A stretch of DNA of 64,000 nucleotides from Stappia stellulata DSM 5886 (GCF_000423705.1 NZ_AUIM01000004.1:910587-974586); one strand, 5' to 3'. Positions 30,187 through 46,707 are shown, counted from the stretch's first letter. Notes: generated by a model not told the origin, from the sequence alone. A program made the numbers and translations.

Positions 30187-31461
30187 TTGGACTGGCTCGC
30201 GCCCCTCGCGCTGATCCTCGCCTGTCAGATAGGGCTTATCCTCGCCGGCGTTCCGGTGTTTTTTGCCTTTTTGACGGTGGTGTTCGGCGCGGCTGTTGCA
30301 GTCTTCCCCGGCACCATCGGTGTAACGCTTCTGTCGCGCTCCCTGATCGAGGGCCTGTCGCGCTTCGTGCTTCTTCCGATCCCGCTCTTTCTGATGATCG
30401 GACATCTCCTGATCGAGAGCGGCGCGGGCGGTCGCGCAATTGCGGCCGTCCGCGACCAACTGGGCGCGGCGGGGCGACGCCAGGGGTTCGTGGCGCTCGG
30501 CAGCGGGGTCCTGTTGTCGGCGGTTTCCGGCTCATCGCTTGCCGCGGCCGCGCTCATCCTCAATGCGCTGAAGCCGGCAGCGAACCGGAACGGCGCGGAT
30601 TCCGGCCCCCTGACCGGGGCAGCCCTCGCCAGCGGAGGCATCGCCATCTTCGTGCCTCCCTCCGCACTCGCCGTTCTCGTCGCCTCCATCGCGCAGGTGG
30701 ATGTCGCGGCAATGCTGATCGCCATCGTGCCGCTGGGCGCCTGCCTTGCACTGGCCCATGCAATGGTGATCCGTCTCACCGAACGTCCCGCCGCAACCGC
30801 GCGCAAAGCCGAGCGCGAAGCTCCTTCCCGGCTTCGACATCACATATTGCGCGCGGCCGTGATTTTCGCCTCCATGGTTGCCGGCATCGCCTTTGGCATC
30901 GCAACACCGACCGAAGCTGCGGCCCTCGGGCTCGTCACCACGATCGTGCTTCTCGCGGCCTCGGGAGAACTCGACCGCCATGTCCTCGCCCGTGCAGCCA
31001 CGCGAACCGCCACCGAAGGCGCGGGCCTGCTTCTCGTGATCGCCGCCGCCGGGATCTTTTCCCAGATCCTGGTCTTCCTCGGAATCGCGCAAGGCGTAAG
31101 GGACACGCTCGAGGCCCTCGCCGGGGCACCGCTTGCACTGCTTTTCGCCTGCGCAATTGCCGCAATTCTCCTCGGCTGCTTCGTGGACGGGGTCAGCATG
31201 GCGCTCATACTCGTGCCTCTTGTGCTTCCCGTACTCACCGCAGCCGGCATTGCGCCGCTGCATGCCTGCCTGGTCATCCTGCTGTGCATGGAGATCGGCC
31301 TGATCACGCCGCCCTTCGGATTGCTTCTGATTGTGGCCAGCGGCGTCATGAGGGAGCGGATGACGTTTCCCGCCATCGTTCGCGCGGTGCTGCCCTTTCT
31401 CGCCGCCAAGCTCATCGTGCTGGCCGGCCTATGCGTCCTTGCCGCCGCCGTGTCCGGGTGA
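30187..31461 (+). CDS. TRAP transporter large permease (DctM)
   Basis: A 424-residue, twelve-segment permease. PLFLMIGHLLIESGAGGRAI, GSGVLLSAVSGSSLAAAALI, GIATPTEAAALGL and GLITPPFGLLLIVASG are DctM signatures. It appears to begin with TTG at 30187, six bases after the DctQ stop. Its 3' end overlaps the convergent MFS gene by 33 bases. Confidence 0.9.
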   Translation: MDWLAPLALILACQIGLILAGVPVFFAFLTVVFGAAVAVFPGTIGVTLLSRSLIEGLSRFVLLPIPLFLMIGHLLIESGAGGRAIAAVRDQLGAAGRRQGFVALGSGVLLSAVSGSSLAAAALILNALKPAANRNGADSGPLTGAALASGGIAIFVPPSALAVLVASIAQVDVAAMLIAIVPLGACLALAHAMVIRLTERPAATARKAEREAPSRLRHHILRAAVIFASMVAGIAFGIATPTEAAALGLVTTIVLLAASGELDRHVLARAATRTATEGAGLLLVIAAAGIFSQILVFLGIAQGVRDTLEALAGAPLALLFACAIAAILLGCFVDGVSMALILVPLVLPVLTAAGIAPLHACLVILLCMEIGLITPPFGLLLIVASGVMRERMTFPAIVRAVLPFLAAKLIVLAGLCVLAAAVSG

Positions 31462-32652
31462 TCGCCCGGCTGTCGATTCCGCACGCATGCCGGCCAGCCC
31501 GATGACGATAAAAATCCCGCCCGCGCAGGCAATGGCAAGCGGCACGCCCGCGCGTTCGGAAATCTGGCCGATCGCATAAAACAGCAGGATCGAGATGATA
31601 TTGGACGCAAAGCCCAGGATGGACGCCGCACTGGCGCGAACCGAGCCGGCGACACGGTCGTGAAGAAGACCGGAATTGGCGGTCGCCGCCCCTTGGTAAA
31701 GCATTGCGAAGACGACCACAGCGGGCAGCGCCAGATAGAGCGTGCCGACCCCTACGCCAACAAGCAGCATGACGCCCGCGCCTGCGACGGTCGCGCCAAT
31801 GGAGACAGGTTTCAGGGCCGCGAGCCGGTGGGCGAGAAGATCGCCGAGCGCCTGCGCCCCCATGATCGCGCCGAGAAAAAGACCGAGAGCCGTTTCAGGC
31901 ACACCGAGATCGGTGCCGAGCAGGGGCCAGTACTCGTCCACCGCGCCGGTGCCGATCAGCGCCCCGCCAAAGAGGATCACCCGCAGGACGGCGGGATCGC
32001 GGACCACATGGCCATGGAGCGCACGAACGAACTCGCCAAGCCCCACGGTGCCGTCGTCCACGACCGTCGGTGCCTTGCGCCGCACGAGCAGGAGGCAGCC
32101 AAGCGCCGTCACGGCGGCGACGGCGGTCAGGGCGAGAACGAAGGTGAAACCGAAGGCCATCAACGCCGGGCCGACGGAATAGGCAATCAGCATCGCCGTC
32201 CACTTCAGGGCGTTGATCTGACCGAGCACACGCACAAAGGCGCCGCGGGCACCGCGGGCCTCCATTTCCTCATAGAGAAACGACCGGAACGCGCCGGAAG
32301 ACAGGGCCCCGCGCATGCCCCAAAGCGCAAGACCGATGCCGAACCCGACAAAGGTCGGCATGAAATGCCAGACGGCAAAGCAGCCAAGATAGGCGACATG
32401 ACCGATGATCAGGATCGCCTTCTTGGAAAAGCGGTCGGCGAGATAGCCCGACGGCAGTTCGAAAAGCAAAGAGGAAATCGGCCACAGCATGAGCAGCGTG
32501 GCGATTTCCGTCTCGCTCAGTCCCTGGTCGCGGAAATAGAGCAGATAGACCGGATAGATCAGAATGAGCCCGTCAAAGAAGCCGTAGCCGTAAAAAAGGC
32601 CAAGAGTACGCCATTCGACCCGCCCCGGGCGGCCCTTCTCGTCCCCTGTCAC
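31429..32652 (-). CDS. MFS transporter at the left end of the NRPS/peptide cluster
   Basis: A 407-residue, twelve-segment major facilitator. FELPSGYLADRFSKKAILIIGH is the loop-2 motif A (GxxxDRxxRR-like). GTG at 32652 was chosen: it lies one base after the stop of the upstream gene and has CTGGAG seven bases before it, whereas an ATG at 32703 would overlap that gene by 50 bases. Co-directional with the NRPS and its companion, it probably exports the cluster's product. The 3' end overlaps the TRAP gene, an unusual convergent overlap between two membrane protein genes. Confidence 0.8.
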   Translation of the reverse strand: MTGDEKGRPGRVEWRTLGLFYGYGFFDGLILIYPVYLLYFRDQGLSETEIATLLMLWPISSLLFELPSGYLADRFSKKAILIIGHVAYLGCFAVWHFMPTFVGFGIGLALWGMRGALSSGAFRSFLYEEMEARGARGAFVRVLGQINALKWTAMLIAYSVGPALMAFGFTFVLALTAVAAVTALGCLLLVRRKAPTVVDDGTVGLGEFVRALHGHVVRDPAVLRVILFGGALIGTGAVDEYWPLLGTDLGVPETALGLFLGAIMGAQALGDLLAHRLAALKPVSIGATVAGAGVMLLVGVGVGTLYLALPAVVVFAMLYQGAATANSGLLHDRVAGSVRASAASILGFASNIISILLFYAIGQISERAGVPLAIACAGGIFIVIGLAGMRAESTAGRSPGHGGGKDA

Positions 32653-32653
32653 A

Positions 32654-33718
32654 TCAACTCCAGTCTGTCTTGGCGAGAAGGTCCATGAACCACGCCCGGT
32701 CATGCCCGTGGGCGGACGAGGTCATGACCAGGGCACGGGTGCCCTCGTGCTCGAAGACGGCGGCCCACGGCCCGACAGACGCGTCTATGAAGCGGACATG
32801 CGCCTCCGTCCCGTTGACAGAAACCGTTTCGCCGCTCGCGGGATGCGACGATGCAAGCGGCGGCCAGGCAATACGCCCGCGGTTCCCCGCCTGCAGGATA
32901 AAGCGGACTTCACGCCCCCTGCCCGGCGCGGCGGTGAAGACCAGTTCCGCCTCGCGGTTGTCCGCGTCGCCGAACAGGCCTGTGCTGTCGAGACCGAAAC
33001 CGAAGGAAGGGTCGAGCCGCGGTTGGCGAATTCCCGGCGTCTCCGCGGCACCGGCGGTCCAGGCCCCTCGCTCCGCCTCGTCGGTGCGGCTGAAACGGAA
33101 CAGCCCGTAGGGCACGTTGACGATCGGAAGGTCATGCCGCGACCAGTAGGTCAGGGTCGCAAACGGCTGAGCCTCCAGCAGGCGCGCAAACTGCGCGTCC
33201 ACCGGCTCGAGACCGCAGAAGAGTGCGGCGATCTCTTCGTCGGAATAGCGCCCCTCCGAGATCGACATCTCCACCGAGGTTCGGTTGATGCGCGAGGTGG
33301 CGCCGGCCCGGTCCATGAAATCGGTGCCGACCCAGGTCACATAGGGGGGCACGGACGGCACGGGGCGGACCGCGCCGCCCCACAGCGGCGGATGATCGCA
33401 GGCCGGCGGTGCCCAGTCATACAGGAACTGCTTGAGGCGAAAACGCCGCCCGTTTCCCTCAAAGCGCATCAGATAGGAACAGGTGTTGGCGCTCGTCCAG
33501 TCCGGGGGACGGTTTCCCCGCTCGATGGCATCGTCGTCGGTCGGCGGCGCCTCGACCCGCAGGAAGGCCTCTGTCATCAGTGTGTCGGGCGGCAGATAAC
33601 GGGGCCGCAGGATGGTGAAATTCAGCATCGCCTGTGCGGCTTCGGCCGCAAGAGGCCGGATGCGGGTGCCCGCGTCTTCAAGCGGCACCACATAAGGTTC
33701 GTATGTCGCGGTCCACAT
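32654..33718 (-). CDS. Unrecognised cluster protein, paralogue 1
   Basis: A 354-residue soluble protein that I do not recognise. It has no signal peptide or membrane segment. It is a full-length paralogue of the protein at 45119-46219 in the other arm of the cluster. Shared blocks are FRLKQFLYDW (residues 93-102 here, 87-96 there), an LWG shortly after, a W-G-DF-R stretch, RTS-E---SEG, YW-RH, and VRFILQ/VRIILF in the C-terminal third. Conserved Trp, Tyr, Arg and His suggest an enzyme or a binding protein. AAGGGGGAG precedes the ATG. It lies 34 bases after the NRPS stop and one base before the MFS gene, so it is co-transcribed with the NRPS. Confidence 0.8.
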   Translation of the reverse strand: MWTATYEPYVVPLEDAGTRIRPLAAEAAQAMLNFTILRPRYLPPDTLMTEAFLRVEAPPTDDDAIERGNRPPDWTSANTCSYLMRFEGNGRRFRLKQFLYDWAPPACDHPPLWGGAVRPVPSVPPYVTWVGTDFMDRAGATSRINRTSVEMSISEGRYSDEEIAALFCGLEPVDAQFARLLEAQPFATLTYWSRHDLPIVNVPYGLFRFSRTDEAERGAWTAGAAETPGIRQPRLDPSFGFGLDSTGLFGDADNREAELVFTAAPGRGREVRFILQAGNRGRIAWPPLASSHPASGETVSVNGTEAHVRFIDASVGPWAAVFEHEGTRALVMTSSAHGHDRAWFMDLLAKTDWS

Positions 33719-33752
33719 GGCTTACTCCCCCTTCTTTCGTGTTTGACGGGTC

Positions 33753-36700
33753 TCAGGCGCTGCGGCGAACGGCCGGCACCGCGGTGAGAGCCCCCACCAC
33801 ATGATCGAGAATGGCGTCGGCGCGCTCCGCACCCAGAAGTTGCAAAGAGCAGGTTACCTCAACGATCCAGCCGCGCGGATCGATTTCGACATTGAGCGCA
33901 AGCGGAAAGACGGTTTTCGTGTCCGCCCGCCGCAATGCGCCATTGACCTCGCGCAGCCAGCGGCCGCGTCGGCCGCCGATAACCGGCACGGCCATGGGTT
34001 GCTCCACCGATACCGTCACGAAGGCGGCTTTCTCCCCATCGGCAAGCCGGCCCGCCTGCCGCAATCCCTGCTCCAACATGCTGAGCGTGAAGGGATAGGC
34101 GTCGATGGCCGTGTCGATGCCCTTCTGGATGGCGCCTAGATCTCCCTTCGCCTCGCTCTCGAGCACCAGCGGCAGGGTTGCCGCCATGGGGGCGAACACA
34201 CCGCCGAAACCCGCCGCCTCCCGCCCGTCGACGAGGACACCGAGAATGCCGGCTTGCGTCTCCGGCAAACCCTGAAGAATGCGGGCAAGCCCGGCGGCAA
34301 TCGTGACACCCGCCGTTTGCATCGCCCGAACGAACGATACCTCCGCCCCTTCGGCAAGGATCGCGACACGATGCTCGACGGGATTGACGGCCGTGCCGTC
34401 ATAGGCCGGCCACCGGTCGATCGCGGCGCAACGCTCGATCCACGCCCGCCCGGCCCCGGCCATGCGCTCGCGCTCCCAGGCAGCGCGCCAGGCGACAACT
34501 TGCGGAAAATCGACCTTGCGCGGGTGCGCCTGCGCCGCGTCGCTCGACGCCTCTTCCATGACCGCGGTGAAGTAGTCGTTTGCCTGGCCGGAAACCATGA
34601 TGTTGTGGGACACAAAGGCAAGCCAGCAACTGCCATCGGGAAAATCGGTCTGAACCAGGCGAAACAGCGGTGCGCGGGTCACGTCGAAGGGACGCCAGCA
34701 CTCCTCCGCAATCGCCCTGCGCGCAGCCTCGGTGCCCGAAACGGCGCGGCAAACATGGGCCGGCCGGCCCCTGTCCCGCCGCCAAAGCCCGGCCTCGGGG
34801 TCCCAGACGGCGGACAGCGGGAAATGCTCCGTGGCAAGCCTGTCAAGCGCCGTCTGCAAACGGTTCGCGTCGACACCCGCGTCGAAGGCGGCCACATAGG
34901 GTTGGTTCCAGGCGCCCTCGTCGCCGCGCTCGACCATGGTCGCAAGCTTCGCTGCCTGTATCGGCAAGGGCGGAGCGCTGTCGAGTGCGACCGCGACGGG
35001 CGCCGGTTCCGGCATCGTCAGGCCGGGATCGCGTGCGTCGATCAGGGCAGCCAGCCCGGCCGGAGTCGGATGGGCACGAAACTCCGAGTAGAGAAGGCCT
35101 GTCCGGTAGCGCCGCGCAATCTCGCCCAACAGTCGCATGGCAAGAAGCGAATTGCCGCCGGACAGGAAGAAATCGGTGTCCTCCCGCACGCCCGGATCGG
35201 ACAGGGCCGCGCGAAAACGGGCTATGAGCCAGTTGTCCGTGGACGCATTGTCGGGGACTGTCTCCTGCGCATCCCCGGAGAGCGCATGTGCGTCGCGCTC
35301 GGCGCGCGCGCGCAAGGAACGCCGGTCGATCTTGTTCGCCGTGGTGAGCGGGATCCGCTCGAGAACAAGTAGGCGCTGAGGCACCGCGACAGCAGGCAGA
35401 TTGCGGGCGATATGGGCGCGAAATTCCTGCGTGTCGAAGGCATCCGGATCGCGCGGTACCACGGCCATCAGAAGATGATCGGCAAAAGGCTCGGCCCCTG
35501 GGAGAAAGGCTGTCGCATCGGCGAGTCCGGGATATCGGCGTGCAACAACCTCGACGTCGCCGAGTTCGAGCCGCTGCGAGCGGATCTTGACCATCTCGTC
35601 CTGGCGGCCGCTGACGTGTATCGTGCCATCGTCCGCCAGCATCGCCCGGTCGCCGCTGGCATAAAGGCGCGCGCCCGTCTTTCCGAAGGGGTCCGGCTGA
35701 AAACGCTCCGCCGTCATCTCCGGCGCGCCGACATAGCCCTGCGCTAGGCACAGACCGCCGAAACAGAGTTCGCCGTAGGTTTCCAGCGGAAGCGGTCGCC
35801 GGCGTCGGTCGAGAATCCGGCAATAGGTATTGGGCGCCGCAACGCCGACGCTGACAACGCGGTCGGGATCACGCAAATCGCCATAAGTGCAGGAGATGGT
35901 GCATTCGGTCGGGCCGTAGACATTGACGAGCCGACAGCTGGGCGCCACGACTCTGCGCCAGGCATCGACGGCGTCGGGCCGCGCGGCCTCGCCGCTGAAG
36001 ATGACTGTGTGGACAAGACGCAGCGCGGCCTGTGCTTCTTCCGTCCAGAGACCTGCGGCGAGAAAATGGAACCATGCGGTCGGCAGAGTCAGAAGAGTAA
36101 CGCCCTGCTCCCGGATCCGGTCGAAGAAACGCGCCGGGGATCCCATCATTGCGTCGTCGCGAATGACCAGAGCCGCGCGACGGGTCCAGGCAAAGACAAC
36201 CTCTTCGATATACGCATCGAAGCTTGGCGAGGCGAATTGCAGGATCCGGTCATGGGGACGGATGTCGCTCATTTCATCGGCAAGCAGCGAATGGTTGCGC
36301 GCAGCCCCGTGGGACACGGCGACGCCCTTCGGCACACCGGTCGAACCGGAGGTAAAATAGACCCAGGCGATCCCGTCCGGGACGGCAAGGCTCGGACCCG
36401 ATGGCGGACGCGCGCGGCGCTCAAGCGTTTCGGCATCGAGCGCGAGAACCGGGCCGCCGAACGGCCAGGACGCTCCGTCGACCGTGATGACCAGCTTCGG
36501 CCCGGCGACATCGGCGATCTGCCGGAGCCGGGCAGCCGGCATCGCGGGGTCGATCGGCACGAACGCAGCGCCTCGCCGCCAGATGGCAAGCATCGCGACG
36601 ACGCAAACGAGCGAGGGAGCGGAAAGAACCGCGATGCGATCGCCTGGGCCGACGCCATAAGCGCCCATCAAGGTGTCCACGCCCCCCACCAACGCCAGGA

Positions 36701-39700
36701 TCCGCGACGCGGACACCTGCCGGTCCTTCGACAGAAGGGCGAGTGTCTCCGCTCGTCCGGCGAGATCCGCCTCAATCCCGTGCGAAACGGTCAAGAACGC
36801 CGGCTGCGGCAAGGCGGCTCCGGCCCCGGCGGCGAAAATCCGGGCCTCTTCGCCCTCCAGCAGCACGGGGCAATCGGCGAGCGGCGCCTCGGAAGACCGC
36901 GTCATCCAGTCGAACACATGATGCAGACGCTTGAGAAAAACCCGCAGGGCCACCCCCGGTACAGCGGCCTCCCCGACAAGTCGGAGCGCACCTTGCGCGT
37001 CTTCCGTCAGCGTCACCGACAGCGGAAATTTCGCAAAGGGTGACGGACGGTGCCGGACGGCCACCACGCCGTCGCCCGGGGCTTCGGCATCCTGTTCATG
37101 GCTGAAAGTCGCAAGGGCGCCAATATCCATGCCCCTTTCGGCGAAAGCGGGGGCGAGCCGGGCCATGCCCGCGTGCGAGGCCCCGAGACCGTCGGCGAGA
37201 GCGGCCCCGGTTCCCTCGAGGTTCTGCGCGACCGTGGCATCTTCGTCGATCCGGATGGGCAGCGCCGCCGTCTGTGTCATCAGCCCGACCGTTTCGAAAT
37301 CGCGGGCCGCGCGCCGGGCGCTGATGAAGGCGCCGACGAGCGTCCGGTCGCGGTCGCCCAGCCGGCAGACAAGCGTTGCAAAGGCCAGCAGGCCGACGCG
37401 AAAGAGCGTCGTTCGCCTGTCGCGCGCAAAGTCGACGAGCCGCCGCCGAAGGTTTTCGTCGAAAGACAGGGTCTCGACAACCAGCGGCCCGTCCGGCATG
37501 TCGCAAAACGGAAGCGGCGCCTGCTCCATGCCGCTTTCAAAACCGGCATAGCAGCCGTCATGGCCGAATGCAGCGCCCCCCTCGCGCTCGTCATGCGCCA
37601 TTTGGCGCGTCCGGGCGCACCGGGCGATCCAGTCCCGGTAGGCGGGCGGGGCCGCACTTGCTTGCGGGTTGCCCACCGCAAGATGACGGGCGAGCCGCCG
37701 GGCAAGCACGCCCGGCGACCAGCCGTCGCAAACGGCATGATGCAGGAGCAAAACGAGCACGATCCGCCCCTCGCCGTCTCTTGCAAGCCGTGCCCGGAAG
37801 AGCGGCCCGAGGTCCATATCGAGCGGTTGCGCCATGAGCTGCGCGGCAACGGCATCGGGATCTGCAAGATCCCGTTCTGCGGCAAATGCGGCAAGCTCTT
37901 CTTCGATGCGCGTGGGATTGACGGGAACGACCGTGAGATCGCCGCCTGCCTCGCGGATCGTCAGCGCCAGCGCATCGGTCGAGACGAGCACCGCTTGCAC
38001 AGCCGCAACGATCCGCTCCCGGTCGAGGCCGAAATCGAATGTGAAGAGGAACGTTTCGTTGTAACGCGGATCGCCCTTCGAGACCTGTTCCGCAAACCAG
38101 ATGCCTGTCTGCTCGGGCAAGGCGGGCAAGGCGCGCCCGTCGTCGTCCTGCGCGTTCCCCGTTTCACGGGTCCCGCTCGCCACGCGGATCATCCCGGCGA
38201 GAGACGACACCCGGTCATCCGCGAAAAGATCACCGAGCTCGATCTGCACGCCGAAAGCGCGCTCAATCTCGCCAAGCAGGCGCATGGCATCGAGCGAGGT
38301 CGCACCCGTGGCAAAGAAGCGGTCCTCCGGACCGCGCGGGCCGAGACCGGCGATGGCCGACCAAAGCCGGCCGATACGGGTTTCATCCTCGCTCAGCGGC
38401 CGATCCCCGACCCAGTCGGGAAGCGTCCAGGCGGCAATCGCTGCCCGGTCTGTCTTGCCATGGGCGCTGAGCGGCAGTTGAGGCACTATGCAATAGAGAT
38501 CGGGGCAAGCCGCCGCCGGCAGTCTGTCGCGCAGCTCTCGGCGCAGGGCGGATTCAGCGACCGTCCAGGCGCTTTCCGCCACCCAGGCGACAAGACGGGG
38601 ACGGGCGCCGGCGCCACGGTCGATCACGCAAAGGTCCGGCCGGGCAAGAATTTTCGCGATCGCCTGCTCGATCTCTTCCACCGAGATCCGCTCGCCACCG
38701 AATTTTGCATCGTTTCCGGCCCGGCCCAACAGCACGACATGACCGGTTTGTGCATCGATCCGGCCGAGATCTCCGGTCCGGTAGACCCGCGCACCACCGG
38801 AAAACCCCGGGAATATAAACCGTTCGGCGGTCGCCTCCGGACTGTCCAGGTACCCGAGAGCAAGACCGGTGCCGCCGATGTGGATTTCGCCGGCCTCTCC
38901 CGGTCCGGCAAGGCTGCCATCGGCCCGCACGACATAAAACTCGGTATTGGCGATGGGAAAGCCGATGGCACCGTCCGGTGTCGCCCCCGGCGTCAATGGG
39001 TCCACGCTGCGCACGCTGGATGCCTCGGTAATGCCGAAGGCGTTCACGAGCGCACAGCTCTCCGGCACGTCGGGCACGGTGCGAAGGACGTCGCCGCCGA
39101 CGATCAGCAGGCGGAGCCGGCATCCTTGCGTGAAATCGCCGCGACGCAACATGCCGGCCCGGGCTGTGGCGAGGAAGGTGATCTCGACGCCGGTCCGCTC
39201 CAGCCAGCGAACAAATCCCGGACCGTCGGAAAGGTCGGCGTCTTCGGCGATATGGATCTCGGCCCCTGCCAGAAGCGCCGACCATACCTCCCAGCGGCTA
39301 ACGGCAAAGGCGGTCGATGCGGTCCAGCCCGTGCGGGTTCCCGGTTCCATCTCGAACGCCTGCGCGGTCCAAAGGGCTTCGTTGAGGATCCCGTCCTGCG
39401 CGGTGAGCACCCCCTTCGGCCGCCCTGTGGACCCGGATGTGAAATAGACGACCGCCGGGACGTCGGGATCCTCTGGAACCGCTCCATGGTCGTCACCCGC
39501 ACGCGAGCGCGAAAAGGGGGCAAGAAAGCGCAAGTCGGCATCCGGCAGATGGACGCTGCGATCGAACGCGAATGTGAGGCGCGGCCGGGCCTCTTCATGC
39601 AGCATCCGCACCCGTTCGGGCGGATGGGCCGGGTCGAGCGGCACGGCCACCGCCCCTGCGAACAGGCAACCGATCTGCGCGGCGACAATGTCGGGCGAAC

Positions 39701-39950: not shown

Positions 39951-40797
39951 GGGGCGGACACCTTCCGATACAGGCAATGCGGGAGGACGTCGCAAGAAGC
40001 GGCCCGAAGCTCGCGGGCGCTTGCGGGTCGGTGCGAAACCCCTCCTTGCAGGCGATGTCAACGAAGCCCGCAGCTTCCAACAGCTCGCTCAATTGCCGTT
40101 TTGTATAAATCCGCAGGCGTGTCGCGAAAACGCGCGGGCGCGCGCTGCCGCTCTCCACCGTCACAACCTGATCGAGCGTGCCCGTTTTCCAGTCCACACG
40201 GTTTTCCTCGCGCACAAATGCCGAAGGCCCAAGCGGATAGGACTTGCGCTCCGGCCACATACGCGCCGGCCCGCCGGCATGGATCGTCTCGAGAACGAGC
40301 CATCCGCCAGGCCGCAAGACGCGCCGGAAGGCCTTGAGCGCCGCAAGATCCTCATCGGCATCGTCGAAGAAACCGAAAGCGGTGTAGAGGCTCGCCACCG
40401 CGTCGAAGCATCCTGCGGGAAAAGGCGGACTGCGGATGTCGCCCTGAACGAGACGTCCGGCGGGAAGACCCTTGCCCCGGGCGGCGGCCAGCATTTCGCC
40501 GGAAAAGTCGAGCCCCACGGCATCCAGCCCCGCGTCGATGAATTGCTTGAGATGCCGGCCCTGCCCGCAGCCGGCGTCAAGCAGCTTCGCGCCCGTGAAG
40601 AGACCGAGCATGTCGATGACATCGCCGACCTGGATCCGGTCCAGCGTCTCTGAAAATTCAGAGGCATAAAGATCGAGATAAGTGCCGCCGAAAGCTGTCT
40701 TCCAGGCCTCCGCGCCAGGCCCGCCGCGCGGTCGGTCATGTGCATGCCCCCCCTCGCTGCGCCCACCTGCCGGACCGGCCGTCGATGGCTCCGTCAT
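39937..40797 (-). CDS. Class I SAM-dependent methyltransferase
   Basis: A 286-residue methyltransferase. Motif I is LLDAGCGQGRHL (residues about 72-83), followed by LDFSGEML, the motif II region FDAVASLYTAFGFFDD and the motif III VLRPGGWLVLETIH. A C-terminal part follows with RLRIYTKRQLSELLEAAGF, a methyltransferase-11/25-type ending. It is the first leftward gene and overlaps the NRPS start by 14 bases, so it is probably a tailoring enzyme for the NRPS product. GTG at 40845 is an alternative start; neither has a strong ribosome site. Confidence 0.85.
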   Translation of the reverse strand: MTEPSTAGPAGGRSEGGHAHDRPRGGPGAEAWKTAFGGTYLDLYASEFSETLDRIQVGDVIDMLGLFTGAKLLDAGCGQGRHLKQFIDAGLDAVGLDFSGEMLAAARGKGLPAGRLVQGDIRSPPFPAGCFDAVASLYTAFGFFDDADEDLAALKAFRRVLRPGGWLVLETIHAGGPARMWPERKSYPLGPSAFVREENRVDWKTGTLDQVVTVESGSARPRVFATRLRIYTKRQLSELLEAAGFVDIACKEGFRTDPQAPASFGPLLATSSRIACIGRCPPHAPA

Positions 40798-40933
40798 TCG
40801 GCGGTATCCGGCAACGACACAAGGGCTTTCCACGCGACCCGACACGATCCGGCCGTCGACTCCAGATCCCTTACGCTAGGGAAGCCTTTCAAGAAATAAC
40901 AATCAGCACTTGTAACCATATTATTATTCACGC

Positions 40934-40967
40934 TTGACGGGTATTCTGTGAGTACGTAATCTTACGT
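40934..40967 (+). promoter_or_regulatory. Promoter of the peptide operon with overlapping palindrome
   Basis: TTGACG (40934-40939) and TAATCT (40957-40962) are 17 bases apart, facing the peptide gene. The -10 lies inside ACGTAA-TC-TTACGT (40954-40967), a perfect six-base inverted repeat with a two-base centre. A protein bound there would cover the -10. This is the divergent region between the two arms of the cluster. Confidence 0.55.
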
Positions 40968-40968
40968 T

Positions 40969-40990
40969 GTTGTTGGCATGAGTCAACAAC
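40969..40990 (+). promoter_or_regulatory. Leader hairpin before the 40-residue peptide gene
   Basis: GTTGTTG (40969-40975) and CAACAAC (40984-40990) form a perfect seven-pair stem with an eight-base loop. It lies in the predicted 5' untranslated RNA, 14 bases before the AAGGAG ribosome site. It could stabilise the mRNA or be a protein site. Confidence 0.45.
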
Positions 40991-41017
40991 TTCTAGACGC
41001 AATGAAGGAGTCCAACG

Positions 41018-41140
41018 ATGAGCCACGAATATGAGGTTGAAATCGACGAAGTGACCCTCAGCGAGGCTGAAACCCTCGTGCGGATGCAGGACGGCGACGC
41101 CGGCAACGACGAAGACAGTCAGATCGCCGAAAAGTGGTGA
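41018..41140 (+). CDS. 40-residue acidic peptide, candidate RiPP precursor or peptide scaffold
   Basis: ATG at 41018 with AAGGAG (41005-41010) seven bases upstream opens a 40-codon frame ending in TGA at 41138-41140. The peptide begins MSHEYEVEIDEVTLSEAETL and ends QIAEKW. It has 13 Asp/Glu, no Cys, and a single C-terminal Trp. Residues 25-29 (DGDAG) could be a Gly-type cleavage site that would leave an 11-residue core NDEDSQIAEKW. It is not MbtH-like in length or motif. It is first in the rightward arm, followed by a strong hairpin and then five co-directional enzyme-like genes. This arrangement is typical of RiPP precursor genes, but no known precursor family is matched. Confidence 0.72.
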   Translation: MSHEYEVEIDEVTLSEAETLVRMQDGDAGNDEDSQIAEKW

Positions 41141-41183
41141 TCGCCAGCGTTGACGCGCGTGTCTGAAAACCGTGCGTCGGCAT

Positions 41184-41209
41184 CCCGGCCGGAAGCGCGC
41201 CCGGCCGGG
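41184..41209 (+). terminator. Attenuator-like hairpin after the peptide gene
   Basis: CCCGGCCGG (41184-41192) pairs perfectly with CCGGCCGGG (41201-41209) around an eight-base loop, followed by TATTTG. It lies 44 bases after the peptide stop and 96 before the next start. The short U stretch suggests partial termination, which would make far more peptide message than enzyme message. Confidence 0.6.
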
Positions 41210-41304
41210 TATTTGCCGTGAAAACGGGGAACTGTGTTTCCAATCCTCACCGGACGTGCGCCCCGCATGCCCGGCAACCGGAGCTTGACGACGGGAGTTC
41301 TCGC

Positions 41305-42693
41305 GTGATTATCACCTCCCTCGGCCATTCCTCTTTTCTCGTCGAAACAGGCGGGACGACACTTGCCGTCGATCCGTGGCTGACGCCCCGTCTCGATCGG
41401 TTCTGGCGCCGCAATCTCCATTGCGACATTACCCTGACCCTGCCGCGCGTCGACGCCCTGCTGATCAGCCACCACCATTGCGATCATTTGAACGTGGAAT
41501 CGCTGGCCGGCATCAACAAGGATGCAATCGTCCTTTATCCGGACGCGGAAAAGCTGCCGGTCCATAGCGGTTCCGGCATGGGATACAAGGCGATCCCCTG
41601 GATCTTGCGGGAGCTCGGCTTTACGCGCCTTGTCGCGGTCAAGCCGCTTCAGGAGGTCGGCTTTCGCGACATGACGATCACCGCCCTGCCCTCAAAAGTC
41701 ATGTTCCCGGAGTTTCTCTACCTGCTGGAGGTCGAGGGCAAACGCGCGATCTTTGGCGGAGATGCCATCCTGCACCCCAGGACGGAGGCCTTCTTTCGCG
41801 AACGGCAACCGGCAATCGACATCGCATTCATCCCGAGCCATTCCACCTCGCCGGCCGCTCCGCTTCTGGAGCGCCGCGAGGCCGACGACTATGCACTTTT
41901 CGAGAAACGCTGCCGTGATGCTTTCAGCGCCCACACCGACCTTTTCAACGCCACCCTCACCGTGCCGTCGTCGTTTGGCTGGCGGGTCGACGGCATCGAT
42001 GCAGCGGACCGTTTCGCATGGGTCAACCGCAAGATCTTCCCCTTCACGCCGCTTCAGGCGCATGACGCCCTGAAACACACCGGCCGGCGAAGTCATCTCC
42101 CGGGTTCCGGAGACCGCTTCGTCGTCTCTGCCGGCGGATCCGTTGCTGTGGAACCGGGCGCGCGCCACGCACCGGCGGATGTGGCGGACAGCTATGCCGA
42201 TCTCGTGCTCGAGCCCAAGGTCGGGATTCCGGCGTTCCGGCCCGGCTCCTACGGCGAAGCCCCGTTCACGGGCGATCCGGAAGAACTCGTGCGCAAGGTT
42301 CTGGCGCATATCGTCGGCACCTACTACTGGAGCCGGCATTGCACGACCCCGCGCCCGGTGACGTTACGCCTGAGCGACGGCGACGGTTTCGACACCGACT
42401 ATGCTCTCGACATTGCCGGCGGCACCTTCACCGCACAGCCGGCGGACGGGCGGCCGGCCGGCGGCTACAGCTGGCTTCACCCGTCGACGCTGAAGGGCCT
42501 TTTCGACGCAGAGCTCCTCTTCGCCAATGCCTTCGGGCTCTGGGCCTCAAACGACAATCTGCTGACGGAGATCTTCCACCATCCGTCCTTCTTCATGACC
42601 CACCTCGGGCGGCGGTCGCACGTCGCAAGCCCGCCCGCGACATGCAACGACGCCGGCACCAGGGCGCCGGCCGAAAGGGAGATGTCCGCATGA
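41305..42693 (+). CDS. Metallo-beta-lactamase-fold protein (UlaG-like)
   Basis: A 462-residue protein. The N-terminus (MIITSLGHSSFLVETGGTTLAVDPWLT) is the beta-lactamase_2/UlaG-type start, and the metal motif is HHHCDH (His56, His58, Asp60, His61). Further ligands are likely in FGGDAILH and IPSHSTS. The C-terminal 200 residues (from about 255) are extra and unrecognised. GTG 41305 was chosen because the fold begins there and GGGAG lies seven bases upstream; a GTG at 41218 would add 29 unlike residues and overlap nothing. ATGA overlap with the next gene. Its role could be hydrolysis or redox chemistry on the peptide or NRPS product. Confidence 0.8.
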   Translation: MIITSLGHSSFLVETGGTTLAVDPWLTPRLDRFWRRNLHCDITLTLPRVDALLISHHHCDHLNVESLAGINKDAIVLYPDAEKLPVHSGSGMGYKAIPWILRELGFTRLVAVKPLQEVGFRDMTITALPSKVMFPEFLYLLEVEGKRAIFGGDAILHPRTEAFFRERQPAIDIAFIPSHSTSPAAPLLERREADDYALFEKRCRDAFSAHTDLFNATLTVPSSFGWRVDGIDAADRFAWVNRKIFPFTPLQAHDALKHTGRRSHLPGSGDRFVVSAGGSVAVEPGARHAPADVADSYADLVLEPKVGIPAFRPGSYGEAPFTGDPEELVRKVLAHIVGTYYWSRHCTTPRPVTLRLSDGDGFDTDYALDIAGGTFTAQPADGRPAGGYSWLHPSTLKGLFDAELLFANAFGLWASNDNLLTEIFHHPSFFMTHLGRRSHVASPPATCNDAGTRAPAEREMSA

Positions 42694-44066
42694 CGACTGC
42701 GACCAAGACGCGAACGCCGGCAGAGGCAAGCGGCGGCGGAACCGCGGAGATCTTTCACGCACTCGACGACAGGGCCTTCTGGGAACAGGTCGAGGCGGTG
42801 CGCACGGAGCTTGAAGCCTCTGAAAGCCCCGAAGAGGGCATGGCCCGGCTGGAAACGGCGATCAACCATCCGATCTGGCAGGTTCGCGTCGCGGCCTGCG
42901 ACGTCGCCCATGCCTGGTCACACCATCTGCCGGCCCGCGAACTCCTTTGCGAGGCAACCCATGACGCGGTCGATGCAGTGGCCTTTCGGGCAATTCGCCT
43001 TTGCGGTGCCCTGCGTGAGCCGCGCGCCGTTTCGCATCTGGTGCGCATTTCCGGATGGCCGAGCTATTTCACGCGCGAAGACTACAAGCGCAAGCCTGTC
43101 GGCATTGGCGCCTCGCTGACCAAACATGCCCTGACGACCATCTTCGACAGCTCCGACCCGTCCGAGCTCAAAGCGCGCGAAAACGACTTCCTCGCCCCCT
43201 ATCGCGCCCTGCTCGACCGCAAGAAGGCGCGGGAACCCGACCTCTCCACCATGGTCCACATTCCCGAGGGGCCGGCTGTGACGGGCGTCGACTCGGTCGA
43301 CGACTTCCCATTCTTTTACAAGGACTTCCTTCCGCGGCGCGAGGTTCACGTCGACGCGTTCTATATCGACCGCGATCCGGTCTCCAATGCCGACTATGCA
43401 CTCTTCCTCGACTTTGCCCGCACCCATCCCGACCGGGTCGGCCACCCCGACGCTCCGCCCGAGAAGGATTATACGCCGGCCCACTGGCGCGATCCGCGCT
43501 TTGCCGATCCCGCCCTGCCGGTCACCGGCATCGACTGGTACGACGCCTGGGCCTACGCGGACTGGGCGGGCAAGGCATTGCCGAACGAGACGCAATGGGA
43601 AAAGGCGGCCCGCGGACCGGAAGGCCGGGTCTATCCCTGGGGCGACAGCTTCGACCCGGAAAAGGCGAATTATGTCGAAACCTGTTTCGCGCGCCCGATC
43701 GGATCCATGGCCGAATGGGAGGAAATCCTGCGCAGCTACAGCGACACGACGCCCGAACGCACGGTTGAGAAGGCCGATGCCCGCGCTGGTTCGCAGAGTG
43801 TTTACGGCGTGCGCGGACTTGCCGGCAATGTCTGGGAGTGGACACGCACCAACTTCTTCGACCACAAGGACATGGATCCCTTCTTCAAGAACCGCCATCC
43901 GCGCGAATTCATGAACCGGCCGGCCGCCTTCGCCGTGATCCGGGGCGGGTGCTTCACGTCACGCGCGGAGATGCTGCGCGGCTACTACCGGGGCAAGGAC
44001 CTCCTGACCGATCGCCATTGCGAGATCGGGTTTCGCTGTGTCTGGCAACCGCCGAAGGCGCCATGA
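42690..44066 (+). CDS. HEAT-like/FGE-sulfatase (SUMF1) domain fusion
   Basis: A 458-residue protein. Residues about 20-170 are helical and resemble HEAT repeats (ETAINHPIWQVRVAACDVAHAW, AVAFRAIRLCGALREPRAVSHL). Residues about 185-455 are a SUMF1/FGE-like C-lectin fold: VHVDAFYIDRDPVSNADYALFL, DWYDAWAYADWAGKALPNETQWEKAARG, VYPWGDSF, GLAGNVWEWT, FAVIRGGCF and GFRCVW. The copper-binding Cys pair of true formylglycine-generating enzyme is absent from the RGG-F region, so formylglycine formation is unlikely. Related oxidative members include PvdO of pyoverdine maturation and EgtB. An oxidative tailoring role is the best guess. ATGA overlaps both neighbours. Confidence 0.82.
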   Translation: MTTATKTRTPAEASGGGTAEIFHALDDRAFWEQVEAVRTELEASESPEEGMARLETAINHPIWQVRVAACDVAHAWSHHLPARELLCEATHDAVDAVAFRAIRLCGALREPRAVSHLVRISGWPSYFTREDYKRKPVGIGASLTKHALTTIFDSSDPSELKARENDFLAPYRALLDRKKAREPDLSTMVHIPEGPAVTGVDSVDDFPFFYKDFLPRREVHVDAFYIDRDPVSNADYALFLDFARTHPDRVGHPDAPPEKDYTPAHWRDPRFADPALPVTGIDWYDAWAYADWAGKALPNETQWEKAARGPEGRVYPWGDSFDPEKANYVETCFARPIGSMAEWEEILRSYSDTTPERTVEKADARAGSQSVYGVRGLAGNVWEWTRTNFFDHKDMDPFFKNRHPREFMNRPAAFAVIRGGCFTSRAEMLRGYYRGKDLLTDRHCEIGFRCVWQPPKAP

Positions 44067-45094
44067 GCAGCCTTGAGGAACGCCGCGACGGCGGTGGACG
44101 GAGCGAGCGACGGCCGGTGGTCCTGGTCACCGGCCCGCTCGGCAGTGGCAAGACCTCGCTCCTGCGCGACGCGCTCGACCAGGCCGCGCCCGTGGATATC
44201 GACATGGTGGTCGGCGACATAGGTGAAGAGAGCATCGATTCCGATCTCTTCGCCCGCGCCGGCTACGTCAATGTCGGGATTTCGGGCGAGTGCATGTGCT
44301 GCAGCGGTCTGGAGGGCATGATGGCAGCGCTGACGGAGCTTTCGCATCCGCATCGCCCGTTTCGCGGCATCGTGATCGAGGCCTCGGGCCTTGCGGAAAG
44401 CTCCGCGCTGATCGGTGCGCTCGGTGCCGACCCGGTGATGTCAGCGCGCCTCGCCATCCGCAGGGTCGTGGCCTGTGCCGACCTCACGTCGTGGCGCGGC
44501 ACAGGCATGCCGCAAGACATCCTCCGCGACCAGATCCGGGCAGCCGACACGCTGGTGCTCACAAAGACGGATCTCGCCGTCGGGGCGGAACGCGCGCGGT
44601 TCGAGGCACGGCTTTCCGATCTCAACCCGATCGCCCGCATTGTCGAGCGGGACCAAAGCATCCGCGAGCTTTTCGCGCCCGGTTGGCAAGACCGTCTGGC
44701 ACCGCTCCCCGAAACCGCAGCCGCATCCCACGGCCACCGCCATACCGACATCGCGGCCTTCTCGCTCCATCATGAGGGAAACATCACCTCGGCAGTGCTC
44801 GGCGAATGGCTCTTCGCCCTCTCCACCATCCTGGGGCAGGATCTCATTCGGCTGAAGGGCATCGCCGTTTGCCGCGAGCGGACCACGCCGGTCGCCTTCC
44901 ATGTGGTCAACGGCGTGCTGTTTCCGCTCGAGCCCGTGACCGGAGCCGGCACGGCAACCCATCCCCTGACCGCGACCGTGATCGGCCGCAATCTCGACCG
45001 GGACGCCCTGCGCGATACACTCGATCTGGCGCTTGCCCGTCATATGGAACCGAGTGCCGGCTTGCCGAGTATCGATGCCCTGTCACTCTCGTGA
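44063..45094 (+). CDS. COG0523-family (CobW/G3E) GTPase, likely metallochaperone
   Basis: A 343-residue G3E GTPase. Walker A is GPLGSGKT (residues 24-31), and the metal-binding CxCC is CMCC (77-80) in GECMCCSG. VIEASGLAESSAL is the switch/G3 region and LTKTD supplies G4. A His-rich SHGHRHTDI loop precedes the C-terminal CobW_C-like domain. Members deliver Zn, Co, Ni or Fe to client enzymes. In this operon the FGE-like and metallo-beta-lactamase-fold proteins are natural clients (inference). ATGA overlap with the upstream gene. Confidence 0.88.
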   Translation: MSSLEERRDGGGRSERRPVVLVTGPLGSGKTSLLRDALDQAAPVDIDMVVGDIGEESIDSDLFARAGYVNVGISGECMCCSGLEGMMAALTELSHPHRPFRGIVIEASGLAESSALIGALGADPVMSARLAIRRVVACADLTSWRGTGMPQDILRDQIRAADTLVLTKTDLAVGAERARFEARLSDLNPIARIVERDQSIRELFAPGWQDRLAPLPETAAASHGHRHTDIAAFSLHHEGNITSAVLGEWLFALSTILGQDLIRLKGIAVCRERTTPVAFHVVNGVLFPLEPVTGAGTATHPLTATVIGRNLDRDALRDTLDLALARHMEPSAGLPSIDALSLS

Positions 45095-45118
45095 TATCCA
45101 CGCAAACGGAAGGGTCGC

Positions 45119-46219
45119 ATGACGGAGGATACAGACACGAACCGTGCGGACGCCTTTGCGGACGGTCTTCTGCACGACCTGCCACTTGCCGATATCCAGG
45201 CCCGCGTGAACTTTCCCGTCTTCGAGCCGACGCAACTCGTTGACTGGGACATCACCTGGACCTTGCGCACCGAACAGCCGCCAGGCGGTCGGGAGACCGG
45301 CAGCGGCCACCGTGCCAACTGGGGAACGGCGAACCCGTGTTCCCTGCGTTTCGAGGCACGGCGCGACGAGACGGTCTTCCGGCTGAAGCAATTTCTCTAC
45401 GACTGGGGACCGGCGGCAGGCGACCTGCCCTGTCTCTGGGGATCGCCGGCAACGCCCATCCCTCTGGACGGCGACTACCTCGGCTGGCACGGTCGCGATT
45501 TTCAGGGCCGCGAAGGCGGATATGCCCGGCTTGCCCGCACCTCCTGCGAACTGGCCGTCATCTCGGGCGAACTCGGTGAGGACGGCACCGCGCATGTGTT
45601 CCGCTCGCTCGTTCGCCTCGGCGGTCCCCACAGCGATGCGCGTCTCACCCTGCCGCTTGCCAGGCTCAGCTATTGGGCTCGCCATGCTCCCGACCCGGTC
45701 AACGCCCCGATCGGCTTTTTGCGCTGGCGCCGCGACCGCCGGCCCCGGAAGACAATATGGAAGGCGGCCGACGCGTGTGACGCTCTCGACGTAGCCGTGC
45801 ACCTGCCGCCGGACGCTGGCCTTGCGCTCGACAGCGTCATTGTCTTCGAATACCGGACCCACCGCGAATTCGAGTTCGTCTTCGACACCGGTGCGGACAA
45901 GGGGCACGAAGTCCGGATAATTCTGTTCGACAGGCCGGATGCCTACGACCGGCTTCGACCGTGGTCGCTGGAAAAACACCCCTGCCACCTCGAGACGCTT
46001 TCCGATGGAAGCCTGCTGGCCTTCGTCTCCGACACCCATGGCGCCTATACGGCGATCCGCAATCCGGACGGGTCTCATCCACTGCTTGTCCTGACCAGTG
46101 CACGGGAAGGCTGGGACCGGAGCTGGGTTGCTGGTCTTGTCGCGGGGATTGAGGCAAGCGGGCTGGACGTGCCGGGCACGCACCCCGGAGGCTTGCGGGC
46201 GGGAGGCGCACACGGATGA
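45119..46219 (+). CDS. Unrecognised cluster protein, paralogue 2
   Basis: A 366-residue soluble protein, full-length paralogue of the protein encoded at 32654-33718. Conserved blocks are FRLKQFLYDWGP (87-98), LWG, YLGWHGRDFQGR, RTSCELAVISGE, LSYWARHAP with a Pro-Val-Asn soon after, and a C-terminal half ending in LVLTSAREGWDRSWV. It is about 12 residues longer than paralogue 1. No domain is recognised. One copy in each arm of a divergent cluster argues that both are needed, perhaps as two catalytic steps or a heterodimer. The stop overlaps the next ATG (ATGA). Confidence 0.8.
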   Translation: MTEDTDTNRADAFADGLLHDLPLADIQARVNFPVFEPTQLVDWDITWTLRTEQPPGGRETGSGHRANWGTANPCSLRFEARRDETVFRLKQFLYDWGPAAGDLPCLWGSPATPIPLDGDYLGWHGRDFQGREGGYARLARTSCELAVISGELGEDGTAHVFRSLVRLGGPHSDARLTLPLARLSYWARHAPDPVNAPIGFLRWRRDRRPRKTIWKAADACDALDVAVHLPPDAGLALDSVIVFEYRTHREFEFVFDTGADKGHEVRIILFDRPDAYDRLRPWSLEKHPCHLETLSDGSLLAFVSDTHGAYTAIRNPDGSHPLLVLTSAREGWDRSWVAGLVAGIEASGLDVPGTHPGGLRAGGAHG

Positions 46220-46707
46220 ACGACATGCCGGCAGACACCTCGCTGGACCTGTCCGGCGTGACCCATGACAACCGCCTGCCCGCCTTCGATGTCGTGGCAT
46301 TCCTGAAACGGCCTTTGGTCGCCCATCTCGCGACATGGAAAGCCGACACGGCCTGCGATTCCCCACTCTGGTTCTATCACGACGGGCGCGATCTCTGGTT
46401 CATCAGCGCCAACAGGTCCGACACGTTCCCCGACAAGGTGGAGCGCGCGCCGAACGCCGCCGTCGGCATCGTCGATTTCGACCGCCCGACGGGACGCTTC
46501 CTGCATGTCGGCTTTCGCGGCATCGCACGCCCCCACCCCTGGGACGCAGACACGGCCATCGCCCTCCTTTCGAAGTATCTCGGACCGGATCGGTCGAAAT
46601 GGGATCCCCGCTTCGCCGATGCACCGGAGAGCCCCTCCAACGTCTTCGTGCGTTTCACGCCCCGCACCTTCGTCGCCCGCGACCAATCCTTTCGCGCTCC
46701 CGGCTGA
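46216..46707 (+). CDS. Pyridoxamine 5'-phosphate oxidase-family (FMN split-barrel) protein
   Basis: A 163-residue protein with the split-barrel start (FLKRPLVAHLATWKADTACDSPLWFYHDGRDLWFISANRSDTFPDKVERAPNAAVGIVDF). This is the pattern of PPOX-like flavin reductases and F420/FMN-dependent enzymes, with no true PdxH C-terminus. It is the last gene of the rightward arm, overlapping paralogue 2. A flavin-dependent reduction of the cluster's intermediate, or a detoxifying step, is possible. Confidence 0.8.
   Translation: MNDMPADTSLDLSGVTHDNRLPAFDVVAFLKRPLVAHLATWKADTACDSPLWFYHDGRDLWFISANRSDTFPDKVERAPNAAVGIVDFDRPTGRFLHVGFRGIARPHPWDADTAIALLSKYLGPDRSKWDPRFADAPESPSNVFVRFTPRTFVARDQSFRAPG

Follow-up and report, generated by a model that had tools for sequence, protein, structure and literature searches.

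What is made by a gene cluster in which a non-ribosomal peptide synthetase (NRPS) diverges from a tiny peptide gene that is followed by an unusual set of enzymes? Such a cluster lies at positions 31429-46707 of a 64,000-nucleotide stretch of Stappia stellulata DSM 5886 (NZ_AUIM01000004.1:910587-974586), here called the window. Its ten genes form two divergent arms. The left arm (minus strand) encodes a class I S-adenosylmethionine (SAM) methyltransferase, the NRPS, a protein without family assignment (UNK1) and an MFS exporter. The right arm (plus strand) encodes a 40-residue peptide, a metallo-beta-lactamase (MBL)-fold protein (Lactamase_B_3), a fusion of HEAT repeats with an FGE-sulfatase domain (HEAT-FGE), a CobW GTPase, a paralogue of UNK1 (UNK2) and a PNPOx-like protein. 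An earlier reading of the DNA by itself (the sequence-only reading) had described this gene content, and analysis of open reading frames (ORFs) and domains confirmed all ten genes. Genome comparison showed that a predicted small peptide with a C-terminal or near-terminal Lys-Trp (KW) motif is encoded next to HEAT-FGE in nearly every cluster, usually together with a flavin mononucleotide (FMN)-binding split-barrel protein and an MFS exporter. With a probability of roughly two in three, we propose a carrier-peptide pathway, or one resembling those of ribosomally synthesized and post-translationally modified peptides (RiPPs), in which HEAT-FGE would modify Lys-Trp and the resulting unit would later be joined to NRPS building blocks.

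A KW peptide gene accompanies HEAT-FGE

Scanning 84,980 genomes with an alignment of the UNK family returned 43 loci. At the actinomycete loci, HEAT-FGE homologues lay alongside, usually with MBL homologues as well, and relatives of HEAT-FGE were found in Streptomyces, Kineosporia and other actinomycetes. Nearly all of these actinomycete HEAT-FGE genes are directly preceded by a tiny ORF of 19-41 codons with a ribosome-binding site, the product of which ends in Lys-Trp plus zero to two residues (...TSKW, ...TTKWEA, ...FKWAA; also KWEG). A search with HEAT-FGE found the same arrangement at loci without UNK and MBL. About seven leader types could be told apart: MSDRDFIETRDAEQETSKW or near variants, present at UNK-associated loci; MTAEDFLGSREAGEAATKW, from a Streptomyces clavuligerus plasmid; MSDETFLGSRDGGDETTAKWEA; a longer form of 41 residues ending in FLNSRDADTDVHKW; MKTLRQWNALRSQRKGGVRPAGKYFKWAA, which is basic and adjoins a double-FGE cluster; MSYGSQWEKAVSTRSLKKRLTDADKW; and MMIDDEFIESRDKGGAPTKW. 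Further KW ORFs encode MTDETFLGSRESAMNTKWEG and MSDKDFIASRDEKKATTKWEA. The actinomycete peptides combine a conserved N-terminal motif with the KW core, whereas the Stappia-type leader is divergent. Since the leader types are clearly different, the association of KW ORF and HEAT-FGE has been kept over long divergence; the loci are partly non-independent, many coming from close Streptomyces relatives.

Control genes gave a different picture. None of 15 other FGE-family genes (PF03781) in eight Streptomyces genomes had a KW ORF, whereas each HEAT-FGE cluster of the same genomes had one, and the two other FGE-family genes of the window genome had none. When ORFs were sought upstream of all other predicted genes at 22 loci, 4 of 334 were positive. 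Three of these proved to be unflagged HEAT-FGE genes, leaving a background of about 1/331.

A second cluster type (L056, L086 and L087) carries a HEAT-FGE gene on either side of a PhyH gene, and its basic 29-residue peptide ends in FKWAA. In two public plasmid records, the gene tables (which are incomplete) do not list the KW ORFs (L054:6216-6275 and L055:11724-11783); standard annotation can therefore miss such clusters.

The Stappia peptide is invariant

The 40-residue peptide of the window, MSHEYEVEIDEVTLSEAETLVRMQDGDAGNDEDSQIAEKW, contains 13 Asp or Glu and 2 Lys or Arg residues and ends in Lys-Trp. The cluster or UNK was carried by 3 of the 14 genus genomes searched, the window genome among them. 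The sequence-only reading would have been refuted had the two arms not co-occurred elsewhere. Within the genus they do: the two other genomes have both arms in collinear order. One of them is Stappia stellulata SN27-3 (NZ_JAIVMF010000002.1); in the second, the cluster spans two contigs. Across the three genomes the enzymes are 66-86% identical and the peptide is 100% identical. The peptide gene differs at four nucleotides per comparison, all synonymous, with 0/40 amino acid changes. Against SN27-3, amino acid differences number 0/40 in the peptide, 55/456 in HEAT-FGE, 101/461 in the MBL-fold protein and 100/366 in UNK2, and differences at fourfold sites amount to 15% in the peptide gene and 37-49% in the other genes. 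Because all 40 residues are identical with synonymous changes only, where neighbouring genes differ at 12-27% of residues, the 40-residue ORF is a genuine gene. The 5' untranslated region (UTR), with its promoter-like element and hairpin, is strongly conserved too, and constraint at the RNA level therefore contributes.

Organization of the cluster

The features, in order along the window, are as follows.

31429..32703, minus strand: MFS exporter (PF07690, 6e-16; 83% identity in the two other genomes)
32654..33718, minus strand: UNK1, paralogue of UNK2, without Pfam or NCBIfam family
33753..39950, minus strand: NRPS, A-T-C-A-T-C (ORF open to 40061; best ATG at 39950)
39937..40845, minus strand: SAM methyltransferase (PF08241, 1e-18; true start at 40845 or downstream, with ATG 40797 possible)
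40934..40962, plus strand: promoter-like TTGACG-N17-TAATCT of the right arm, read by eye; kept in three genomes
40969..40990, plus strand: 5' UTR hairpin GTTGTTG-N8-CAACAAC, identical in three genomes
41018..41140, plus strand: putative acidic precursor peptide of 40 residues ending in Lys-Trp (conservation; KW-peptide family upstream of HEAT-FGE)
41184..41209, plus strand: GC-rich inverted repeat 3' of the peptide gene, possibly a leaky attenuator or 3' stabilizer
41305..42693, plus strand: MBL-fold protein, CmlA/FrsH-like, with HxHxDH retained
42690..44066, plus strand: HEAT-FGE, proposed peptide-modifying enzyme (PF03781, 2e-45; HEAT_2, 4e-4; family alignments)
44063..45094, plus strand: COG0523/CobW GTPase with CxCC, putative metallochaperone (PF02492, 2e-30)
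45119..46219, plus strand: UNK2, two alpha/beta domains, paralogue of UNK1
46216..46707, plus strand: FMN-binding split-barrel (PNPOx-like) protein (PF01243, 1e-6; homologues in KW clusters)

Gene overlaps had been said to bind each arm into one operon. Five junctions do overlap: MFS exporter/UNK1, NRPS/methyltransferase, MBL/HEAT-FGE (ATGA), HEAT-FGE/CobW and UNK2/PNPOx-like protein. Others do not: 164 nucleotides, which hold the GC-rich hairpin at 41184-41209, separate the peptide gene from the MBL gene, the start of which is best set at GTG 41305 rather than at 41218, and a 34-nucleotide gap separates the NRPS from UNK1. A terminator scan after the peptide gene found nothing, the repeat at 41184-41209 having no T-tract. 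The right-arm TTGACG-N17-TAATCT element was absent from the output of a consensus promoter scan. Between the arms, at 40955-40990, the palindrome ACGTAA-TC-TTACGT and the GTTGTTG/CAACAAC repeat are strongly conserved; they are possibly an operator or an mRNA-stabilizing structure.

HEAT-FGE is a distinct member of the FGE-sulfatase fold

The enzyme belongs to the FGE-sulfatase fold superfamily (PF03781, 2.1e-45; 155.8 bits against a cut-off of 23.3), which it shares with FGE/SUMF1, EgtB/OvsA, CalU17 and PvdO. Its profile matches rank CalU17 (2e-28), EgtB (4e-27), FGE (1e-22) and PvdO (1e-5), so that the resemblance to PvdO first suggested for it is a remote one. It differs from the FGE/EgtB group in that HEAT repeats replace the DinB domain, the cysteine pair is replaced, a motif of its own is present and it is linked to a KW peptide. 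The copper-binding cysteines were located by the motif near the C-terminus of human FGE, which we take to be the reference. Ser426 and Leu431 occupy these positions in HEAT-FGE, and the family alignments contain no conserved cysteine pair. The subfamily motif HP[DS]...H...D.R includes the near-invariant His254 and His263 (alignment numbering), and marks a candidate metal site, for which Asp256 and Asp270 are further candidate ligands. The FGE-like domain is probably a metal oxidase that lacks the copper-cysteine site of true FGE.

The NRPS and its possible link to the peptide

The NRPS has about 2,100 residues in the order A-T-C-A-T-C, with two AMP-binding (A, adenylation), two PP-binding (T, thiolation) and two Condensation (C) domains and no thioesterase. 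In A1 the Asp that binds the amino group is missing (FAVSRWE against FDxSxWE), whereas A2 retains it (FDAYIEE). The terminal C domain (33753-34990) is degenerate, with SHNIMVS instead of HHxxxDG, and may be non-catalytic or specialized.

Most KW clusters have no NRPS; the NRPS arm is restricted to a few lineages. One of these is a Streptomyces lineage (L080) with genes for a C protein and an A-T protein in an operon-like run with the KW peptide and HEAT-FGE. Its A domain has the A1-type pocket (FAISRWE against FAVSRWE; GVTEASSVR against GITEASSVR), which is absent from the best-scoring plasmid A domains with readable motifs, a small control set. Overall similarity of A1 was tried as a guide and proved uninformative (36-37% to many A domains), and the pocket motif alone was used. 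An unusual acid substrate common to the two NRPS-containing KW clusters would fit loading of a KW-derived unit, the motif being seen in two proteins and set against those few controls.

The MBL-fold, CobW and UNK proteins

The best PDB matches of the MBL-fold protein are the diiron beta-hydroxylases CmlA and FrsH (1e-10 and 2e-7; Z 16.7). It keeps HxHxDH and lacks the usual third His; Glu136 is invariant and aligns three residues past Glu377 of CmlA. CmlA and FrsH have an N-terminal domain that is missing here, whereas the Stappia protein has an extra C-terminal domain; its metal ligands are candidates. The fold is the one first described, and the closest resemblance, to CmlA and FrsH, indicates that the protein is probably an oxygenase rather than a hydrolase. 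It may still be a hydrolase, the Z score for ordinary MBL hydrolases (15.5) being close to 16.7 in a model of moderate confidence (pLDDT 68). The CobW GTPase (PF02492, 1.7e-30) carries CxCC within GECMCCSG, which is consistent with a role in metal supply; no CobW homologue was seen in the actinomycete clusters.

The supposed paralogy of UNK1 and UNK2 is borne out (35% identity, 9e-47), and neither protein has a Pfam, NCBIfam or meaningful PDB-sequence match. The AlphaFold model (pLDDT 86) gave fold matches all with Z below 8 (RseB, 7.7; MucB and LpqN/PsbP-like, about 6-7), which are only a hint and a non-specific one. UNK-family proteins, with an invariant KQF.YDW, also occur in haloarchaea (L038-L045), Chlamydiae (L046, L048 and L049), Holospora (L050) and bacilli (L051-L053). 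These loci have no FGE or MBL homologues nearby; UNK, considered as the cluster-defining gene, was therefore ruled out in that role. A metagenome-assembled genome of the Rhodobacteraceae encodes a UNK1 homologue (L016:9917-10987; 61% identity), and there is no NRPS or FGE match within the 18.8 kb covered there.

Distribution and companion genes

HEAT-FGE is present in 15 of 296 Streptomyces genomes (about 5%; E up to 1e-60) and in 3 of 396 Actinomycetota genomes, the centre genome included. With strict cut-offs, it was found in no other genome among the 398 Pseudomonadota and 337 Alphaproteobacteria sampled. An FMN split-barrel protein accompanies the pair in most KW clusters examined: that of Stappia, the main Streptomyces type, that of S. 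clavuligerus, L080, L081, L082-L084 and the double-FGE type. Most KW clusters also encode an MFS exporter. The tailoring genes vary. The main Streptomyces type has ATP-grasp, PhyH, asparagine synthetase, aldehyde dehydrogenase and pyridoxal phosphate (PLP) aldolase; S. clavuligerus has a class II aldolase, a luciferase-like oxidoreductase and an aminotransferase; the KWEA type has a methyltransferase, a P450 and an ATP-grasp ligase; and the L080 type has the condensation and A-T proteins. In L081:12831-15610, the KW peptide, HEAT-FGE and FMN protein are followed by a match to an EgtD-like methyltransferase (PF10017, 8e-10). As judged from gene content, the pattern of KW clusters is a shared core with diversified products, and the transferable core consists of peptide, HEAT-FGE, FMN split-barrel protein and exporter only.

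A proposed pathway and its alternatives

The peptide is very probably the substrate of HEAT-FGE, and Lys-Trp is probably the modified core. Because the NRPS arm is limited to few lineages, the peptide rather than the NRPS product would be the primary substrate; the earlier idea of a ribosomal peptide combined with an NRPS is supported, with the target of the FGE-like enzyme reassigned. The HEAT domain would recognize the N-terminal portion of the peptide (acidic in Stappia) as a leader, and the FGE-like domain would oxidize Trp or link Lys to Trp. We lean towards oxidative chemistry for this step. Given the KWEA and KWAA forms, the Trp carboxylate cannot be a general requirement of the modification, so that a reaction at the side chains of Trp and/or Lys is the likeliest. 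The FMN protein would perform a second redox step. The CmlA-like protein may act as a hydroxylase, either on the unit while it is still on the peptide or on an amino acid carried by the NRPS, with CobW supplying metal, and UNK1 and UNK2 may be binding proteins for substrate or product. Once released, the modified unit derived from Lys-Trp would be joined to NRPS building blocks, methylated and exported, A1 being the candidate loader of this unit and A2 loading an alpha-amino acid. Covalent joining to the NRPS product is tentative, a little short of even: as most KW clusters have no NRPS, this step rests mainly on the co-operonic position and the pocket motif.

Several observations weigh against this proposal. 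Modification of the peptide is a prediction from comparison, no protease for release of the KW unit was recognized, and, as described above, an NRPS is absent from most KW clusters. One HEAT-FGE locus (L031) has no recognizable KW ORF. The Stappia-type leader aligns poorly with the actinomycete leaders, with which it shares acidity and KW alone, and two leader types are basic.

The recurrence of the right-arm core without an NRPS would also suit two independent, adjacent pathways, with a KW-peptide product from the right arm and an NRPS product from the left. This is unlikely, since each of the three genomes with either UNK paralogue has the two arms in collinear order, each arm holds one member of the UNK family, and the second lineage has its NRPS genes in the KW-peptide run. 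No more probable is a small peptide that acts as a permanent micro-subunit or activator of HEAT-FGE, the enzyme itself working on the NRPS product as PvdO would. Proteins of the FGE fold are often found in natural-product pathways (CalU17, EgtB, PvdO), and an NRPS is at hand in the cluster. But most HEAT-FGE/KW clusters have none, which rules out an NRPS product as the substrate in general, and an invariant KW with a tail of variable length would suit a core better than a binding partner. Slightly less probable again is a regulatory leader, acting by attenuation or ribosome arrest (for example by sensing Trp through KW-stop): the ORF is short, first in its operon, followed here by a strong GC hairpin and preceded by a highly conserved 5' UTR, but KWEA, KWEG and KWAA place the motif away from the stop codon, most forms have one Trp codon rather than a run, all 40 residues are conserved, and the ORF is tied to the HEAT-FGE subfamily, being absent at other FGE genes and at nearly all other genes.

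The peptide as a substrate of HEAT-FGE thus remains our preferred reading, and with it comes a predicted substrate for the oxidase subfamily that combines the FGE fold with HEAT repeats. If correct, it would add a maturase fold to RiPP chemistry and an undescribed activity to the FGE fold, provide a simple search handle (KW ORF, HEAT-FGE and FMN split-barrel protein) and offer an example, open to testing, in which an NRPS is fed by a ribosomal peptide.

Comparison with known systems

The sequence-only reading knew of no described cluster with this content, and nothing matching it was found in the open-access literature: neither an FGE-type RiPP enzyme nor a KW-peptide cluster is described there, most subscription papers lying outside this coverage. 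As far as we found, then, peptide-based biosynthesis is known but the combination of a KW core with a HEAT-FGE enzyme is undescribed. An encoded precursor beside its presumed modifying enzyme, the mark of a RiPP system, is what the KW ORF next to HEAT-FGE presents across genera. Whether the invariant Lys-Trp core and a HEAT-FGE that oxidizes or cross-links it amount to a new class of ribosomal peptides, extended here by the NRPS into a ribosomal/non-ribosomal hybrid, we regard as evenly balanced.

The closest parallel is with the pearlins (ammosamide, bha and 3-thiaglutamate; BhaC1/AmmC1), in which an oxidase with a helical-repeat domain modifies a C-terminal Trp while it is attached to an acidic scaffold or carrier peptide, and a small molecule is released; for BhaC1, the TPR domain was modelled as the reader of the acidic scaffold peptide, and the C-terminal Trp is trihydroxylated (PMC9850906). 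A similar course is proposed here. The oxidases differ, however, BhaC1/AmmC1 combining TPR with FMN and the Stappia enzyme HEAT with the FGE fold. Pearlin pathways append a C-terminal amino acid that the gene does not encode, whereas the Trp is encoded in the Stappia ORF, and the Lys before it is also invariant. No PEARL/LanB-like domain was found among the ten cluster genes, and a genome-wide search with PF04738 found none, its controls being unmatched as well. On its predicted gene content the cluster is not a pearlin cluster, given the lack of PEARL within it and the encoded Trp.

A second parallel is with PQQ and mycofactocin, the small precursor peptides of which give a dipeptide-derived product. 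The likeness lies in a very short precursor of which a dipeptide would become the product; the difference is that the genes of Stappia-type clusters include no radical SAM protein. The diverse tailoring and sporadic distribution of the KW clusters suggest that their product is a secondary metabolite rather than a cofactor.

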